IMG/VR virus record: IMGVR_UViG_3300030109_001746
Location: 1-23,164 of that record
Strand: one strand, 5' to 3'
Origin: a virus
Length of the DNA stretch: 23,164 nucleotides
Notes under the pieces: model-generated
Seen by the model: the letters and a program-made list of their open reading frames with translations, nothing else
What the model was told of the DNA's origin: nothing
Database searches by the model: none
In this document: positions 2-4,838 of the stretch, in pieces
Position numbering within the stretch: position 1 is the first letter of the stretch
Layout: each line of letters opens with the position of its first letter
Position numbers and translations under genes: made by a program

Positions 2-208
2 AGCGAATATGATCGCGTGATTGAGGCGTTGTTGCTGTTGGGTGAGGATGCACGGCTGGTGTGGGCGGTGGCGGTCAGTGCCGCTAGGCGTGCCAGAGGG
101 CCGGCATGGACGCAGTTAGGAAAGATGTTGGGGATGCATCCAAGGACGGTTAAGCGAAGGTTCGAGAGGTCGTTGCTGGAGTTGTGGTTTAAGATTTCAG
201 TTCGGTGA
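2..208 (+). CDS. DUF6362-like helix-turn-helix protein (5' partial)
   Basis: The frame is open from the left edge of the window, so the N-terminus is missing. A GTG at 17 could start a 63-residue protein, but the acidic stretch before it reads on into the homologous region and I treat the gene as partial. The visible part has an R-L-V-W helix followed by a tryptophan, a short linker and a C-terminal helix-turn-helix (LGMHPRTVKRRFERSLLEL). From memory this arrangement matches the DUF6362 family of small phage and prophage proteins, which resemble sigma-factor region 4 or TerS-like HTH domains and whose role is unknown. Its 3' end overlaps the convergent gene at 189-401 by 20 bases. GC content is clearly higher than in the leftward operon genes between 398 and 3637. 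The family call is moderate. Confidence 0.6.
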   Translation, partial: SEYDRVIEALLLLGEDARLVWAVAVSAARRARGPAWTQLGKMLGMHPRTVKRRFERSLLELWFKISVR

Positions 209-401
209 TTAGGTGATGAAGCTCTGTTGAGCGTTGGTTGATTAGTTCAATAAGTTCTTGGCGTAGGTCAGGTATGCCACGGTCACCCGTGAGCCAGCGT
301 TGTACTGAGCGAGGCGCAACGCCAAGGTCACGGGCAAGGTCGGCTTGCCAGCGTGGGCCATAAAGCGCTACGCCTATCTTTTCCAATAGTGAGCGGGTCA
401 T
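189..401 (-). CDS. Small helix-turn-helix DNA-binding protein
   Basis: This 70-residue protein is the last gene of the leftward operon. Residues 15-40 form a clear Cro/CI-type helix-turn-helix: a Y-G-P-R-W-Q-A-D-L-A start, then LGVAPRSVQRWLTGDRGIP, followed by a C-terminal helix. The same small HTH architecture is common in alphaproteobacterial phages and prophages. The start ATG (399-401) overlaps the stop of the upstream gene in an ATGA junction and has an AGGAG about 11 bases before it. Being HTH-bearing and operon-distal, it could be a late repressor of the operon or a regulator of its own promoter, but this is inference. Its last codons overlap the convergent gene by 20 bases. Confidence 0.8.
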   Translation of the reverse strand: MTRSLLEKIGVALYGPRWQADLARDLGVAPRSVQRWLTGDRGIPDLRQELIELINQRSTELHHLITELKS

Positions 402-796
402 GCGTTTGATTGCTCCTCGTAGCCGTCTTCAAGTTTTAGAATTAACCCGTTGAGATACATTATTAATGCATCATCAACTTTTCCTGTATAATTTTTTGTG
501 TGCCAATCAGCCTTCTGTTTTAAAGCTAATATTATTGTGTCTATATCCTCTTTTGTTAGTTGTTTTGCAAAGGCTTCTTGAAACATTTCGTCTTGCATAA
601 CGTTGTCATATTCGGCTTGTTCTAAATTAATTTGAACTGTTAAACCGTTTAGCGATGCGTTAAGGACTTCACCTGTTAAGCAAACCTTATTTTGACTACC
701 TATGTACACGTTTAAATCCTCTGCGCGAATATTTATGATTTCTTGCAACTGTTGTATTGTTAGATTTTTTATATCCATTGAAGATAAATCAACCAT
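398..796 (-). CDS. Acidic protein of unknown function
   Basis: I do not recognise this family. The product is about 132 residues, mostly charged and predicted helical, with no signal peptide or membrane segment, and it is acidic (about 22 Asp/Glu against 10 Lys/Arg by eye). Two ATG codons are possible, at 802 and 796. I prefer 796 because the AGGGG ribosome-binding site lies about 7 bases upstream of it but only about 1 base from 802, and because the repeat carrying this signal places the same spacing before the next gene's ATG at 1154. The stop codon overlaps the downstream HTH gene in an ATGA. It belongs to the ArdA-containing operon, so a role in countering or adjusting host functions is possible but unproven. 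Confidence 0.7.
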   Translation of the reverse strand: MVDLSSMDIKNLTIQQLQEIINIRAEDLNVYIGSQNKVCLTGEVLNASLNGLTVQINLEQAEYDNVMQDEMFQEAFAKQLTKEDIDTIILALKQKADWHTKNYTGKVDDALIMYLNGLILKLEDGYEEQSNA

Positions 797-832
797 TTTC
801 ATTCCCCTAACTTTTGGTTATCCAGTTTTGAT
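797..832 (-). repeat. Direct repeat copy A, flanking the 843-1154 gene
   Basis: This 36-base stretch matches 1154-1189 at 33 of 36 positions. On the minus strand it spans the ribosome-binding site of the 398-796 gene. Read in the frame of the 843-1154 gene past its TGA, it gives the tail QNWITKS and a stop at 807-809, almost the same as the C-terminus QNWITKT of the protein encoded at 1164-1475. Copy A is therefore best read as a leftover 3' end of that gene together with its downstream translation signal. Confidence 0.85.
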
Positions 833-842
833 AATGAAGGGG

Positions 843-1154
843 TCATGCTTCTACAATCATATCATCAAAAAATTCTTTAGCATTTTCGGCTTCACCATGC
901 TTTTCAAATAGCTCTAATGCTTCTTCTTTTGTTAGCGAAATCAAACCACGCCCTTGCGTTTTTGTGTTTCCGGTTACCGTTGGGAATCTACTCAAAGCAC
1001 CGCCAGCACCAGCTATAAAAAATGCACCTTTTTTTGTTTTATAAAGAGCGCTTATTTCCCACTTAAAATCGGAATTAGGTAATGCGTTTCCAGTCTCGCA
1101 AATGAAATTTGCCGTATCTGTGTTGTAAAGTTTACCGTCTATAACTTTTTTCAT
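843..1154 (-). CDS. Small protein of a mobile-element family, function unknown
   Basis: A 103-residue soluble protein. Its N-terminus KKVIDGKLYNTDTANFICE, then a K-T-K-K-G-A-F-F-I strand followed by a glycine-rich turn and a C-terminal helical segment with SLTKEEALELFEKHGE, resemble a family of small uncharacterised proteins that I recall from plasmids, integrative elements and phages, often next to antirestriction genes. No enzymatic motif is visible. The ATG at 1154 has AGGGGA 6-7 bases upstream, inside the direct repeat. The gene is exactly bracketed by the two repeat copies (797-832 and 1154-1189), suggesting it entered, or could leave, as a single-gene cassette. Family resemblance is from memory; function is unknown. 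Confidence 0.75.
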   Translation of the reverse strand: MKKVIDGKLYNTDTANFICETGNALPNSDFKWEISALYKTKKGAFFIAGAGGALSRFPTVTGNTKTQGRGLISLTKEEALELFEKHGEAENAKEFFDDMIVEA

Positions 1155-1189
1155 TTCATTCCCCTAAGTTTTAGTTATCCAATTTTGAT
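1154..1189 (-). repeat. Direct repeat copy B, at the 1164-1475 / 843-1154 junction
   Basis: This is the partner of the repeat at 797-832, with three mismatches in 36 bases. On the minus strand it encodes the last codons of the 1164-1475 gene, its TAG stop and the AGGGGA ribosome-binding site for the 843-1154 gene. The two copies are 357 bases apart. Recombination between them would remove exactly the 843-1154 gene and leave both neighbours intact. Confidence 0.85.
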
Positions 1190-1475
1190 GTCGCGTTTCG
1201 TCAGTTCGATGCTGGATGTAAGCGTCAATCGCGTGTATCGCTTCATCGCAAGTTTTTGCTAAAACTTCTTTGCTTGGCACTTCATCAATAAATTGAAAAT
1301 CGTAAATTATAATCGGGTTAACTGGGTCATTGTCTCCAAACACAAAGTCAGACAAAATCTCCTTTTCGTCTTCGTACCCCCACTTGGCTATAAGCTCTGG
1401 TGCTAAACGGTGTACGATGTAGCCTTGTTCATCGTCTGTATACGGGTCACTGCCCACTATCCATTTGTTTTTCAT
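1164..1475 (-). CDS. Acidic protein of unknown function
   Basis: This 103-residue protein is not recognised. It is rich in Asp and Glu (about 21 acidic against 10 Lys/Arg by eye). It contains an aspartate-rich N-terminal stretch (GSDPYTDDEQGYIVHRL), a middle segment FVFGDNDP followed by a hydrophobic strand, and a helical C-terminus ending QNWITKT. The start ATG at 1475 has GGGAG 9 bases upstream, and only three bases separate it from the preceding gene's stop. Its 3' end has been duplicated downstream of the next gene (see the direct repeats). Its acidity and position in the ArdA operon would fit a DNA-mimic or other anti-defence role, but the sequence does not demonstrate one. Confidence 0.7.
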   Translation of the reverse strand: MKNKWIVGSDPYTDDEQGYIVHRLAPELIAKWGYEDEKEILSDFVFGDNDPVNPIIIYDFQFIDEVPSKEVLAKTCDEAIHAIDAYIQHRTDETRHQNWITKT

Positions 1476-1478
1476 TTA

Positions 1479-1811
1479 TTATGCTCCCAATTGCTTTACT
1501 TCTTCATGAACGTTATCAACTTCTTCTTTTATCTCGTCTGCGTCTGTAAAATTATCTAAAAATATTGTTGTCATAAGTCCAAATTTTTCAAATGACTTTC
1601 CTTGTTTTTCAAAAAGTTCGAGATCAATCGAAGCTCCCTCGGCGTCTTTTTTTAACTCCCAAGTGATACTTCTCTCAGGGCCGCCAAAACTTTTCGGGGC
1701 TACAGCACTACTTGCAGTTAAATAATCTCGATGCTTAGTTGCTGGGGAAGTTTCCCAACCTTTATTTTGGAAATTCTCGATTATTATATTTTCAGCCTGT
1801 TTATATTTCAT
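1479..1811 (-). CDS. Acidic protein of unknown function
   Basis: I do not recognise this product of about 110 residues. It begins MKYKQAENIIIENFQNKGWE, has a central W-E-L-K-K strand and an acidic C-terminal helix containing DADEIKEEVDNVHEEV. A TTG at 1826 could extend the frame by five codons. The ATG at 1811 is preferred because it forms an ATGA junction with the upstream stop and has GGGAG about 8 bases before it. The product is moderately acidic (about 21 Asp/Glu against 14 Lys/Arg). Translational coupling ties it to the rest of the ArdA operon. Confidence 0.7.
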   Translation of the reverse strand: MKYKQAENIIIENFQNKGWETSPATKHRDYLTASSAVAPKSFGGPERSITWELKKDAEGASIDLELFEKQGKSFEKFGLMTTIFLDNFTDADEIKEEVDNVHEEVKQLGA

Positions 1812-2041
1812 TTTTCTTTCTCCCAATCTTTTAACGCAAACTGTTGAGCAGTGCTTATAAGTTCCTCTGCAATTTCTTCCGTAGGTGCGGCGGCATATGC
1901 GCAGTGCATAACCGTTGTCATAATTCCGGCAAGCGCATCTTTTAAGTCGCTGTGGTTGTCGTCGCCTAAAGTTTTATGGATCTTTTCGAGCGCTTCTAAC
2001 CCGGCGTTTACGCCGATTGAATAGTTTTCTTCGGTATTCAT
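1808..2041 (-). CDS. Small acidic helical protein of unknown function
   Basis: This is a 77-residue protein, apparently all helical, with no recognised family. It has an alanine-rich middle (HCAYAAAPTEEIAEELI) and is acidic overall (about 15 Asp/Glu against 6 Lys by eye). A start at 2056 is possible, but 2041 is preferred because ATGA couples it to the stop of the upstream gene and GGGAG lies about 9 bases upstream. It contains no predicted membrane segment or signal peptide. Its company (ArdA two genes upstream) suggests an accessory host-takeover protein, but this is only context. Confidence 0.65.
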   Translation of the reverse strand: MNTEENYSIGVNAGLEALEKIHKTLGDDNHSDLKDALAGIMTTVMHCAYAAAPTEEIAEELISTAQQFALKDWEKEK

Positions 2042-2523
2042 CCGACTAACTCCCATGAAATATGGTTTCCGTTCGCTTTCTTTTTACCGCCTTGGTCTAA
2101 ATAAATCCAATTACCGCGCTTCACGCCCTCGAATTTTTCTTGCCCCACCGGGTAGGGTTTGCGGCGTGATCCACCCCAGATGGTATAAAAACCTGTGACT
2201 TTTTGTTCGTCTTTGGACGGTTCAACTTTTCTGCAATTTTCGAGAAGTGTTTTTTGTTCGATAGCGTTTAAACTATTCCACTCATTCACAAGCTCTCCAG
2301 GGTCATAAAAATCAACTTTATTATACCAAGTGCCGCCGCTATGATGCCATTCCGAAGGCTTCCAAAATCCAGCCTTTGCTAGGCGGATTGCGTCCGCCTT
2401 GGTGCCCCTCCAGCATACCCGCCTTAAATCCTCGGAGGCAATTTGTGAAAGTGGTTTTATGCCGTCTTCGTAAGCGTCGAGGGCGTTGTTGCTCATGCCT
2501 TCGGTGTAATTATATCCAGCCAT
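2038..2523 (-). CDS. Conserved mobile-element protein of unknown function
   Basis: This 161-residue soluble protein starts with an N-terminal motif GYNYTEGMSNNALDAYEDG followed by KPLSQI. I recall the same 'MSNNA-x-x-AY-x-x-G-x-x-P-x-S' signature from uncharacterised proteins of plasmids, integrative elements and phages, often close to ArdA genes. The C-terminal half is rich in Trp, Gly and Lys (W-G-G-S-R-R-K-P and GNWIYLDQGGKKKANGNHIS) and is less acidic than its neighbours. GGAG lies 8 bases before the ATG, and a single base separates that ATG from the ArdA stop codon. Coupled expression with ArdA and recurrence in such islands make an anti-defence or conjugation/transfer-linked role plausible; no biochemical activity can be read from the sequence. 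Confidence 0.75.
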   Translation of the reverse strand: MAGYNYTEGMSNNALDAYEDGIKPLSQIASEDLRRVCWRGTKADAIRLAKAGFWKPSEWHHSGGTWYNKVDFYDPGELVNEWNSLNAIEQKTLLENCRKVEPSKDEQKVTGFYTIWGGSRRKPYPVGQEKFEGVKRGNWIYLDQGGKKKANGNHISWELVG

Positions 2524-2524
2524 T

Positions 2525-3064
2525 TTACACGCTCCAAAAGGCGGTTACGCCTTTATCATCGTGAGCAAAGTACACATCGCCCCCATATTTTAAGTCGCGT
2601 AAGTAAGATTTATAATTAAAATAATATTTAAGATTTTCGGGAACCTCTGCGAGCAATCCGGTATTTTCTACAAATTCCTCAACCCACTCAATCTCAGTGT
2701 TTGTATTCCCCGCGTATGCTTCAATTGCGGTATCAAAATCTGCGCTTCCATCAATGTAGTCTAGATATAGCTGAACAATATCTTTCTCATAGTCATCTAA
2801 CTTAATCCAATCGAAAATTTTATTGTCTATTCCGCACTCCGAATAAAGGGCCTCAGGAAATCCTTTGTACCCTTGGAACATAAGTTCGGGGTCGTGCTCG
2901 TCTTTGTGTAACTCTCGGCAAGCCTCTAAAAAATCTTCCTTGTCGCTATAATCTTCTAATTGCAACCAAGCGCCCTTGATGCTTCCGTTGTTATATTTTT
3001 CATATGTTCCAACATATAACGCTGGTTGTCCGTGTTTTGTTGTTGTATTGTTTTCTGTAGTCAT
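2525..3064 (-). CDS. ardA: Antirestriction protein ArdA
   Basis: ArdA proteins mimic bent B-form DNA and bind type I restriction-modification enzymes, blocking restriction (and often modification) of entering DNA. This 179-residue protein has the family's landmarks: an N-terminal LYVGTYEKYNNGSIKGAWL (the YN-x-G-x-x-x-GAW motif near residues 20-35), a helical acidic middle, and a C-terminal motif FVENTGLLAEVPENLKYYF followed by NYKSYLRDL. That C-terminus aligns well with my memory of Tn916 ArdA. The protein is very acidic (about 37 Asp/Glu against 15 Lys/Arg), as a DNA mimic requires. I chose the ATG at 3064, not 3079, because GGAG lies 9 bases before it; that GGAG sits in the loop of a small GATAA/TTATC inverted repeat. 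It is the third gene of the leftward, presumably early, operon. Confidence 0.93.
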   Translation of the reverse strand: MTTENNTTTKHGQPALYVGTYEKYNNGSIKGAWLQLEDYSDKEDFLEACRELHKDEHDPELMFQGYKGFPEALYSECGIDNKIFDWIKLDDYEKDIVQLYLDYIDGSADFDTAIEAYAGNTNTEIEWVEEFVENTGLLAEVPENLKYYFNYKSYLRDLKYGGDVYFAHDDKGVTAFWSV

Positions 3065-3173
3065 TATTGATAACTCCATTTATCAGTTCTGATCAGCACT
3101 TTGGGAGGCGTTACAGCGCCCCCTAGTGCGTTATTTCCAATTCTTTTCCCAATTTTGAACGATCAATAATTTT
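3065..3173 (-). promoter_or_regulatory. Structured leader upstream of ardA
   Basis: The 109 bases before ardA are the longest gap within the leftward operon. They hold three symmetric elements. The first is an imperfect 8-bp hairpin at 3103-3124 (GGGAGGCG/CGCCCCCT with one mismatch, loop TTACAG). The second is the perfect palindrome CTGATCAG at 3089-3096. The third is an inverted repeat GATAA/TTATC around the ribosome-binding site (about 3069-3084). No good sigma70 promoter is visible here. The structures could modulate ArdA translation or transcript processing, or mark a protein-binding site; this is inference. Confidence 0.4.
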
Positions 3174-3404
3174 TTAGACACGATTCAACCTCGGTATAGG
3201 GGTCCATTCATAAACACCGCCTATAAGTTCACCGTCTTCCATAAAATTTATAAAATCATTGGCTATTAATTCTTGTTTATTAAAATCAAAACGCTTGGCC
3301 ATTTCGTCTATTTCTTTACGGCTAAACAACGGTGATGGAAAAACTGTTGACCCATCTTGGAACCAGATTTTGTAGAATTTATTTTTCTTCATTTGCTCAC
3401 TCAT
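3174..3404 (-). CDS. Small protein of unknown function
   Basis: This 76-residue protein is not recognised. It starts with a lysine-rich segment and a FYKIWFQDGSTVF strand pair and ends with a GGVYEWTPIPRL strand. Charge is near neutral, unlike the acidic products downstream. The ATG at 3404 has no clear ribosome-binding site. An in-frame ATG at 3392 is preceded by GAGTGAG and may be the true start, shortening the product by four residues. It is the second gene of the leftward operon and is followed by the structured ardA leader. Confidence 0.65.
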   Translation of the reverse strand: MSEQMKKNKFYKIWFQDGSTVFPSPLFSRKEIDEMAKRFDFNKQELIANDFINFMEDGELIGGVYEWTPIPRLNRV

Positions 3405-3424
3405 TTGTTAATACTGAATGTTTT

Positions 3425-3637
3425 TCAAATCCATGTTGCTTTTTCTTTGAACTGTATTTGCTTCTGATCGATTAACCACCGTGGAACAAAAATTACATCA
3501 TCTTTGAATGGATGAATACGTATTTGTGACTTCGGAAGCACAGCTTCACTGCCGTCATAACATTTAATGGCTATTGCCTTTTCACTAATGTTTTTTAATT
3601 CTCTAAACCTTACAATGTGAAATGGTTTTTTTTTCAT
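3425..3637 (-). CDS. First gene of the leftward operon, unknown function
   Basis: A 70-residue basic protein beginning MKKKPFHIVRFRELKNISEK, with an AIKCYDGSEAVLPKSQI segment that looks like a beta hairpin and a C-terminal VPRWLIDQKQIQF. I do not recognise a family. The frame can be extended to 3682, but a strong AAAGGAGG (3648-3655) lies 10 bases before the ATG at 3637. The promoter's predicted start point (about 3687) would leave almost no leader for the longer form, so 3637 is chosen. As the promoter-proximal gene with the best ribosome-binding site in the operon, it is probably the most strongly expressed early product here. Confidence 0.75.
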   Translation of the reverse strand: MKKKPFHIVRFRELKNISEKAIAIKCYDGSEAVLPKSQIRIHPFKDDVIFVPRWLIDQKQIQFKEKATWI

Positions 3638-3685: not shown

Positions 3686-3707
3686 ATGGTCTATATATAA
3701 TGACCAT
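3686..3707. promoter_or_regulatory. Operator-like palindrome overlapping the leftward promoter
   Basis: ATGGTC (3686-3691) and GACCAT (3702-3707) form a perfect 6-bp inverted repeat with a 10-base AT spacer. The two half-site centres are 16 bases apart. The site covers the -10 box and start point of the leftward promoter, where a bound repressor would block transcription. The small HTH protein at the operon's end (189-401) is a candidate ligand, by context only. Confidence 0.5.
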
Positions 3708-3722
3708 TATATTAATTGTCAA
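3694..3722 (-). promoter_or_regulatory. Near-consensus sigma70 promoter for the leftward operon
   Basis: Read on the minus strand there is a perfect TTGACA (-35, 3717-3722), a 17-base spacer and TATATA (-10, 3694-3699). The predicted start is near 3687, about 50 bases before the first ATG at 3637. The quality of the match suggests recognition by unmodified host RNA polymerase, as expected for immediate-early phage genes. The operator-like palindrome at 3686-3707 overlaps the -10 element and start point. Confidence 0.85.
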
Positions 3723-4080: not shown

Positions 4081-4383
4081 ATGGCGACACCAGCATATAC
4101 ACGAAAAGAGGGTCAAAACCCTCGCGGCGGCCTCAACCGTAAAGGTCGCGCAAGCTACAAACGCGAGACGGGCGGCACGCTCAAGCCGCCGGTCAAATCA
4201 GGCGACAACCCGCGTAGGGCATCATTCCTCGCGCGCATGGGCAACATGCGTGGCCCAGAGCGCGACACCAAGGGGCGTCCCACAAGGCTTTTGCTCTCAC
4301 TCCGGCAGTGGGGCGCCTCTTCTAAGGCCGACGCCCGTACCAAGGCCCGAAATATTAGCAAACGAAACAAGGTAAAAAAGTGA
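4081..4383 (+). CDS. DUF6321-like basic phage protein
   Basis: This 100-residue, highly basic protein has the order GGLNRKGRASYKRETGGTLK, PPV, a gap, RRASFLARMGNM, then DTKGRPTRLLLSLRQWG. That order matches what I remember as the DUF6321 family, found in many tailed phages and some large DNA viruses next to packaging or structural genes. Function is unknown; the charge suggests nucleic-acid contact. Family members usually end near the conserved R-x-W, but here a further 25 basic residues follow. It is the first gene of the rightward late operon. Its TGA overlaps the ATG of the small terminase gene (TGATG). A weak GAGG precedes the ATG. Confidence 0.8.
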   Translation: MATPAYTRKEGQNPRGGLNRKGRASYKRETGGTLKPPVKSGDNPRRASFLARMGNMRGPERDTKGRPTRLLLSLRQWGASSKADARTKARNISKRNKVKK

Positions 4384-4838
4384 TGTCTGCCAAAAAGGCT
4401 ACTAAGGCAAATATGCAAGTAATTTGTGACGGATTGGCTCAAGGTAAAAGCCTTCGTTCTGTGTGTGCCAGCGACTCCAAATTACCGCATTGGGTGAATG
4501 TTCTGAAAGCTGTTCAAAGAGATGAGAACTTTTACGAGATGTACTCTCGCGCACGCGCAATTGGTGCTGAAGTATTATCAGACGAAATGCATGACTTGGC
4601 CGCTTCACCTTTGCCAGAGGGTTTAGATCCTAAATTGGCTATGGCTGAGATACAGCGTCGGCGTATCGAAGTGGACACAAAGAAGTGGACGTTCTCAAAG
4701 ATGCAACCGCGAGGCGTGCGTCACAAAAAACAGGACATTGAACAGCAAGGCGGTGAGGTAACGCTGGTTTGGGGAGAGCAAAAAAAAGAACAAGCCGAAA
4801 TCGTAAAATTGGTTCAAAAGAAGAAAGAGGTTTCCTAA
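4383..4838 (+). CDS. terS: Terminase small subunit (Sf6 gp1-like)
   Basis: Small terminases bind the packaging start site and deliver phage DNA to the large terminase. This 151-residue protein has an N-terminal helix-turn-helix region (ICDGLAQGKSLRSVCASDSK followed by W-V-N-V-L), then an F-Y-E-M-Y-S-R-A-R-A-I-G helix, a long central helical region with R-R-R-I-E-V-D-T-K-K-W and a short K-M-Q-P-R-G. This is the order seen in the Sf6/HK620-type small subunits. The ATG at 4383 is chosen over an in-frame GTG at 4380 because it overlaps the preceding stop. The large subunit follows five genes later. Confidence rests on motif order and position. Confidence 0.8.
   Translation: MSAKKATKANMQVICDGLAQGKSLRSVCASDSKLPHWVNVLKAVQRDENFYEMYSRARAIGAEVLSDEMHDLAASPLPEGLDPKLAMAEIQRRRIEVDTKKWTFSKMQPRGVRHKKQDIEQQGGEVTLVWGEQKKEQAEIVKLVQKKKEVS

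Follow-up and report, generated by a model that had tools for sequence, protein, structure and literature searches.

The window analysed here is the whole of the virus record IMGVR_UViG_3300030109_001746, a 23 kb stretch (23,164 nucleotides) that is probably a fragment and probably belongs to an aquatic virus of bacteria. A podovirus-like structural module lies on its plus strand, with large terminase and portal genes that show distant similarity to those of Pelagibacter phages, e.g., HTVC010P. The minus strand presents, at positions 189 to 3637, a leftward operon of ten small genes (g1 to g10, numbered from the left), among them the gene of the anti-restriction protein ArdA and a gene, g4, whose product is predicted to fold like the anti-CRISPR protein AcrIIC2. 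A sequence-only reading of this DNA had listed all ten open reading frames (ORFs) as an ArdA-led operon; every ORF was confirmed and the operon is real, but ardA is its third gene, preceded from the promoter by g10 (3425 to 3637), g9 (3174 to 3404), and a gap of 109 bases. The same reading described nearly all junctions as ATGA overlaps or gaps of 1 to 3 bases, which holds for five of the nine: 4-base ATGA overlaps at g1/g2, g5/g6, and g6/g7, plus two gaps, of 1 and 3 bases. At the remaining junctions, the gaps measure 9, 20, 46, and 109 bases.

The operon occupies a slot with two recognizable borders. To the right lies a divergent small terminase gene of the Sf6 type (4383 to 4838, plus strand; PF20901, E value of 8e-23). 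To the left, convergent with the operon, the window retains the 3' part of a gene for a DUF6362 protein (17 to 208, plus strand) that is cut by the contig edge; this retained end matches positions 58 to 96 of the PF19889 profile with an E value of 3.4e-4, which is under the curated cut-off of the family.

The product of ardA (2525 to 3064, minus strand, 179 residues) belongs to the DNA mimic family of anti-restriction proteins. It scores 86 bits against PF07275, for which the cut-off is 27 (E value of 4.5e-24), and it also matches phrog_2059 (4.5e-23) and ORF18 of Tn916 (PDB 2w82; 4e-8). With a net charge of −22 and a pI of 4.3, the protein agrees with what had been read from the sequence by eye, and its identity as ArdA is certain from these profile matches. 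The 109-base gap upstream of ardA (3065 to 3173) contains, by eye, a G+C-rich inverted repeat on the minus strand (GGGGGCG...CGCCTCC), possibly a regulatory hairpin. Elsewhere, one phage contig (G002) has two distinct ArdA genes, each close to a different end of its record (loci L003 and L207).

Predicted fold of g4

The gene g4 (1164 to 1475, minus strand) encodes a 103-residue protein with a net charge of −11, and an alignment of 17 distinct members shows that the family is acidic and conserved. Searches of g2 to g7 and g9 against Pfam, PHROGs, and NCBIfam returned no usable match, and PDB sequence searches with g2, g3, g4, g5, and g7 returned none. The sequence-only reading had proposed hidden Markov model searches and structure predictions for each protein; the profile searches recognized ArdA, and of the structure models obtained, that of g4 matched the AcrIIC2 fold and that of g7 had no recognizable fold. 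The AlphaFold model of g4 (predicted local distance difference test [pLDDT] of 82.5; predicted template modelling score [pTM] of 0.75) is composed of five strands and one long helix. In a Foldseek search of the PDB, the first 15 rows are all AcrIIC2 (E values of 0.004 to 0.05, probabilities of 0.97 to 1.00), and the row that follows has an E value of 0.35 and a probability of 0.12. VIA aligns the model with AcrIIC2 chains at Z scores of 6.8 to 8.6 and a root mean square deviation of 2.7 to 3.6 over 79 to 93 residues, with the next fold at a Z score of 3.7.

A local sequence signal points in the same direction. With an AcrIIC2 query identical in sequence to the PDB chains, the g4 profile aligns at 8.1 bits over g4 residues 15 to 37 and AcrIIC2 residues 21 to 43 (EQGYIVHRLAPELIAKWGYED and NDEFVVHTRYPRFLARKSFDD, respectively), a score equalled by 7 of 20,000 shuffles and by none of 34,930 segments from non-g4 ORFs (local P of about 3.5e-4). 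In the reverse search with AcrIIC2 as a single query, g4 members take 8 of the top 15 rows, each with a weak E value. A comparison by hhalign gives a P value of 0.0096. On visual comparison, one more stretch matches (AcrIIC2 77 to 87, SDFIMLDNNKP; g4 58 to 67, YDFQFIDEVP), in which F60 and P67 of g4 are invariant.

In the AcrIIC2 homodimer, a sheet surrounds a helix of 20 residues; the acidic face of the protein, for which E17, E24, and D108 are needed, binds the arginine-rich Cas9 bridge helix and keeps the single guide RNA from loading (PMC6594998). In g4, position 10 is D in 17 of 17 members, position 16 is D or E in 17 of 17, and position 84 is D or E in 16 of 16. These three acids are candidate counterparts of E17, E24, and D108; in the ungapped profile alignment, it is G18 of g4 that faces E24.

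Alternatively, the resemblance may be a chance match between small folds of a beta-sheet plus a helix, and g4 may have another role, for example as the acidic partner of another nucleic-acid-binding protein. The best Foldseek E value is only 0.004 at 14 to 19% identity, the global profile alignment of g4 and AcrIIC2 is not significant (z of 1.9), AcrIIC2 is absent from the matches of g4 in the PDB sequence search, and a VIA Z score of around 8 can reflect a common arrangement. Against coincidence stand top matches that all belong to one family, whose fold had no DALI neighbour when it was solved (PMC6594998), the wide gap to the next fold, and an independent local signal in the sequences that appears in both directions of search, and this explanation is unlikely. 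The g4 protein is best described, on the strength of its model, as having a predicted AcrIIC2-like fold and as a candidate inhibitor of type II-C Cas9.

A tblastn search with AcrIIC2 against phage and plasmid records found no match, and the relatives on viral contigs that its own sequence retrieves are all at least 89% identical to it. Among 385 genomes of the sampled alphaproteobacterial class, g4 has one marginal match of 30 residues (E value of 8e-4). DUF6362 passes its cut-off in 45 of the 289 genomes from the class to which Microvirga (the centre genome) belongs and in 4 of 274 genomes of the other proteobacterial class sampled, which points to alphaproteobacterial hosts; the host is probably an alphaproteobacterium. 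Since Cas9 is present above the cut-off in 58 of the 385 genomes, targets for such an inhibitor exist.

Recurrence of the cassette and its other genes

About 270 loci were gathered by scans with g7, g3, g4, and ardA, and the profiles of the window genes were run over all six frames of these loci. Homologues of ardA, g7, g4, g6, and g3 co-occur on other viral contigs, where their order is shuffled and the terminases are unrelated. Among 12 nonredundant g4 loci, g7 is present in 8, g6 in 4, g3 in 3, and ardA in 1, and the 74 ardA loci contain g7 in 5 cases and g6 in 3. ArdC (PF08401, 2.4e-25) accompanies ardA, g7, and g6 in one locus (L240) and is found near g3 in two more (L075 and L158). The closest relatives have the cassette flanked on one side by a divergent small terminase gene and on the other by a convergent DUF6362 gene, which is followed by an AAA/primase gene; a convergent DUF6362-type neighbour is also present in L002, L003, L005, L008, L034, L043, and L205.

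The most consistent member of the cassette is g7 (2038 to 2523, minus strand), a basic protein of 161 residues (net charge of +2; family mean of +5) with the invariant residues W59-H60-H61 and N68 (a WHH...N motif). Five of the 74 ardA loci contain it even though a scan with a pattern from its alignment picked out just 14 g7 loci across 2.9 million contigs. With one viral protein it shares 62% identity. The model of g7 is confident (pLDDT of 88.2, pTM of 0.58) and matches no fold: the best Z score is 4.4, for the C-terminal barrel-like part only, and Foldseek, in searches that did not take the N-terminal part by itself, returned nothing below an E value of 0.06.

The g3 family (843 to 1154, minus strand, 103 residues) is widespread in phages and mobile elements, and it has no model in Pfam, PHROGs, or NCBIfam. 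The scans confirmed relatives in 204 viral stretches and 76 in genomes, haloarchaea included (loci L052 to L200). None of 67 cellular g3 loci contains ardA, only 5 of 50 genomes with g3 encode ArdA anywhere, and the cellular neighbours are integrases, helix-turn-helix (HTH) genes, two adenine methyltransferases, and conjugation genes. Because its cellular loci are without ardA and have such neighbours, g3 is a mobile-element gene and not specifically a partner of ArdA. The sequence-only reading had likened both g3 and g7 to uncharacterised families of plasmids and integrative elements close to ArdA genes. Weak plasmid relatives do exist (g7 on seven plasmids at 24 to 34% identity, g3 on one haloarchaeal plasmid), but no annotated ArdA lies in the four g7 and one g3 plasmid neighbourhoods inspected. 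The proposal that these are ArdA-linked families of plasmids and integrative elements was not upheld in the plasmid neighbourhoods inspected or, for g3, in the cellular loci.

The remaining genes, all on the minus strand, are less informative. The acidic protein g2 (398 to 796, 132 residues, net charge of −12) has one short relative, which adjoins g7 and g4 in L034. A search for relatives of g5 (1479 to 1811, 110 residues, −7) found none, and g6 (1808 to 2041, 77 residues, −9) recurs with ardA, g7, and g4. The first operon gene, g10, encodes a basic 70-residue protein that matches an uncharacterised family (phrog_5809, 6e-10), and g9 encodes one of 76 residues. These genes, with g3 and g7, may be other early host-takeover genes, and everything in the operon besides ArdA and g4 provides leads only.

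In L008, a short ORF between intact g7 and g4 genes (3533 to 3637) has a g4-like start (MATWIVGF) and a g7-like end (EGGKKKANGNHITFSII) and looks like a recombination scar between two cassette genes. One contig of a different phage lineage carries two divergent copies of g4 (L047, 5995 to 6300 and 7170 to 7487). A SprT-like protein is often first in the cassette, from two metalloprotease families (PF10263, under the cut-off; L003, 1006 to 1581, and L007, 4039 to 4683). The L034 cassette also encodes, two genes ahead of its g7 and g4, a DUF7227 protein (PF23872, 2e-87; 1441 to 2121), and by eye a DUF7227-like protein follows ardA in L202.

A serious alternative, to which we give somewhat less than even odds, is that the slot is a general hotspot for early or accessory ("moron") genes, in which ArdA and g4 act against host defence and most of their neighbours serve unrelated functions in host takeover, replication, or regulation. 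The slot is hypervariable, with recombinases, SprT-like proteins, and many singletons; g7 is basic and has no resemblance to anti-defence proteins; and the g3 families adjoin integrases and HTH genes in mobile elements rather than anti-restriction genes. The ArdA-like gene of Rhodococcus phage WC1 is an early gene with mostly unknown neighbours (PMC10986025). The repeated grouping with ArdA, once with ArdC as well, and the presence of an AcrIIC2-like fold in the same cassette argue against so general a hotspot.

Promoter, palindrome, and terminal HTH gene

The operon had been described as read from one near-consensus promoter, and a TTGACA hexamer (3722 to 3717, minus strand) was indeed found upstream of g10, separated by 17 bases from TATATA (3699 to 3694). 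This site was read from the sequence and falls outside a stricter promoter rule, as the second hexamer has no terminal T. A 22-bp palindrome (3686 to 3707, ATGGTC...GACCAT) covers the −10 element and is a candidate operator within the promoter region (3686 to 3722). Its arms match at 9 of 11 positions, the outer 6 bp exactly, and an equal palindrome appears in 53 of 5,000 Markov shuffles of the region (about 1%).

The operon ends with g1 (189 to 401, minus strand), which encodes a 70-residue HTH protein (phrog_3626, 3e-14; weak YdaS, Cro, and HTH_3 matches) and is a candidate autorepressor in an Aca-like position. Against the Aca families, it matches only Aca2_YdiL, with an E value of 0.11. 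Related HTH genes are present in ArdA loci, and HTH-like last genes, some recognized by eye, also occur in L003, L205, L043, L004, and L034. In acr loci, a fixed aca gene, which represses the operon, accompanies shuffled acr genes (PMC7648647), and the layout seen here is, as judged from sequence, acr-aca-like. A terminal HTH gene as a general rule for ArdA loci was rejected, since it holds for a minority only.

Interpretation and comparison with known systems

The favoured explanation, with a probability of about 0.62, is that a podovirus-like phage carries here an accessory operon for counter-defence, which encodes one candidate AcrIIC2-like Cas9 inhibitor and whose variable slot has the terminase genes on one side and the replication module on the other. 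With ArdA and a protein of predicted AcrIIC2-like fold side by side, the operon probably serves as an exchangeable set of genes against bacterial immunity. The single promoter would drive it early, so that its products would meet host immunity as the phage DNA enters. ArdA would then fill the groove in which type I restriction enzymes bind DNA, and g4 may form an AcrIIC2-like dimer whose acidic face would bind the arginine-rich bridge helix of a host type II-C Cas9 before the guide RNA is loaded. The HTH protein g1 may bind the palindrome over the −10 element and shut the operon down. The other genes would be exchangeable members of the cassette, some of them perhaps further inhibitors.

Several results weigh against this explanation, beyond the modest statistics of the g4 match and the cellular g3 loci devoid of ardA. 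Of the 28 viral records that searches with g7 or g4 brought in, just 2 contain ArdA. Most g7 and g4 records contain no known anti-defence gene, and those seen are ArdA and, once, ArdC. Across ArdA loci, a terminal HTH gene detected by Pfam is a minority feature, though more frequent than among internal genes (about 2 of 70), and it was not seen in the close relatives L002 and L005. Acidity was also rejected as evidence of anti-defence function. The four acidic genes other than ardA that had been pointed out (g2, g4, g5, and g6) do have net charges of −7 to −12, but among the small ORFs of the loci used for comparison, 27% have a per-residue acidity at least about that of g5, and four acidic genes in nine gives a binomial tail of 0.21; since many small phage ORFs are this acidic, acidity is not evidence in itself. 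The acidic proteins are very unlikely to be generic DNA mimics, like ArdA or Ocr, directed at restriction or other DNA-binding enzymes: their charges would suit that role, but comparable acidity is common and the fold match of g4 is more specific.

The idea of an anti-defence island therefore holds in part. The view of the unknown neighbours as further inhibitors gains from the shuffled set that recurs with ArdA (once also with ArdC), from the fold of g4, and from the acr-aca-like layout; it gains nothing from acidity or from a linkage of g3 and g7 to ArdA. A bolder version, in which g4 founds a distant AcrIIC2-type branch in aquatic alphaproteobacterial phages and g3, g6, and g7 represent additional, so far unrecognized families of inhibitors moving together with g4 and ArdA as an exchangeable immune-evasion kit, is doubtful. 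If the g4 assignment is true, a distant AcrIIC2 relative in phages that probably infect another class would make the blocking of Cas9 guide loading a wider strategy. For g4, from a previously unnamed phage gene family, the match suggests a specific and testable target, type II-C Cas9, and g3, g6, and g7 of the cassette form a shortlist for guilt-by-association screening of new inhibitors in environmental phages. The concept of such islands is already known; the candidate novelty is a recurrent, shuffled phage cassette that combines ArdA with an AcrIIC2-like candidate anti-CRISPR.

Compared with ORF18 of Tn916 (PDB 2w82), the ArdA of the window belongs to the same family above the curated cut-off and shares its size and strong negative charge, but it is carried by a phage; it is about 26 to 29% identical to the phage ArdA-like genes on record. 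With AcrIIC2 of Neisseria (PDB 6jd7, 6j9k, and 6n05), g4 shares the predicted fold, one conserved segment, and its acidity, with acidic positions that are invariant or nearly so, whereas it is 14 to 19% identical, about 20 residues shorter, and found in phages probably of alphaproteobacteria. The operon as a whole resembles acr-aca operons and anti-defence islands (PMC7648647, PMC11541004) in its shuffled clustering of small unknown genes, its anti-restriction gene, the HTH gene at a fixed end, and the promoter palindrome. It differs in that g1 was assigned to no recognized Aca family, and in its location, which is a phage terminase-replication slot and not the leading region of a plasmid.

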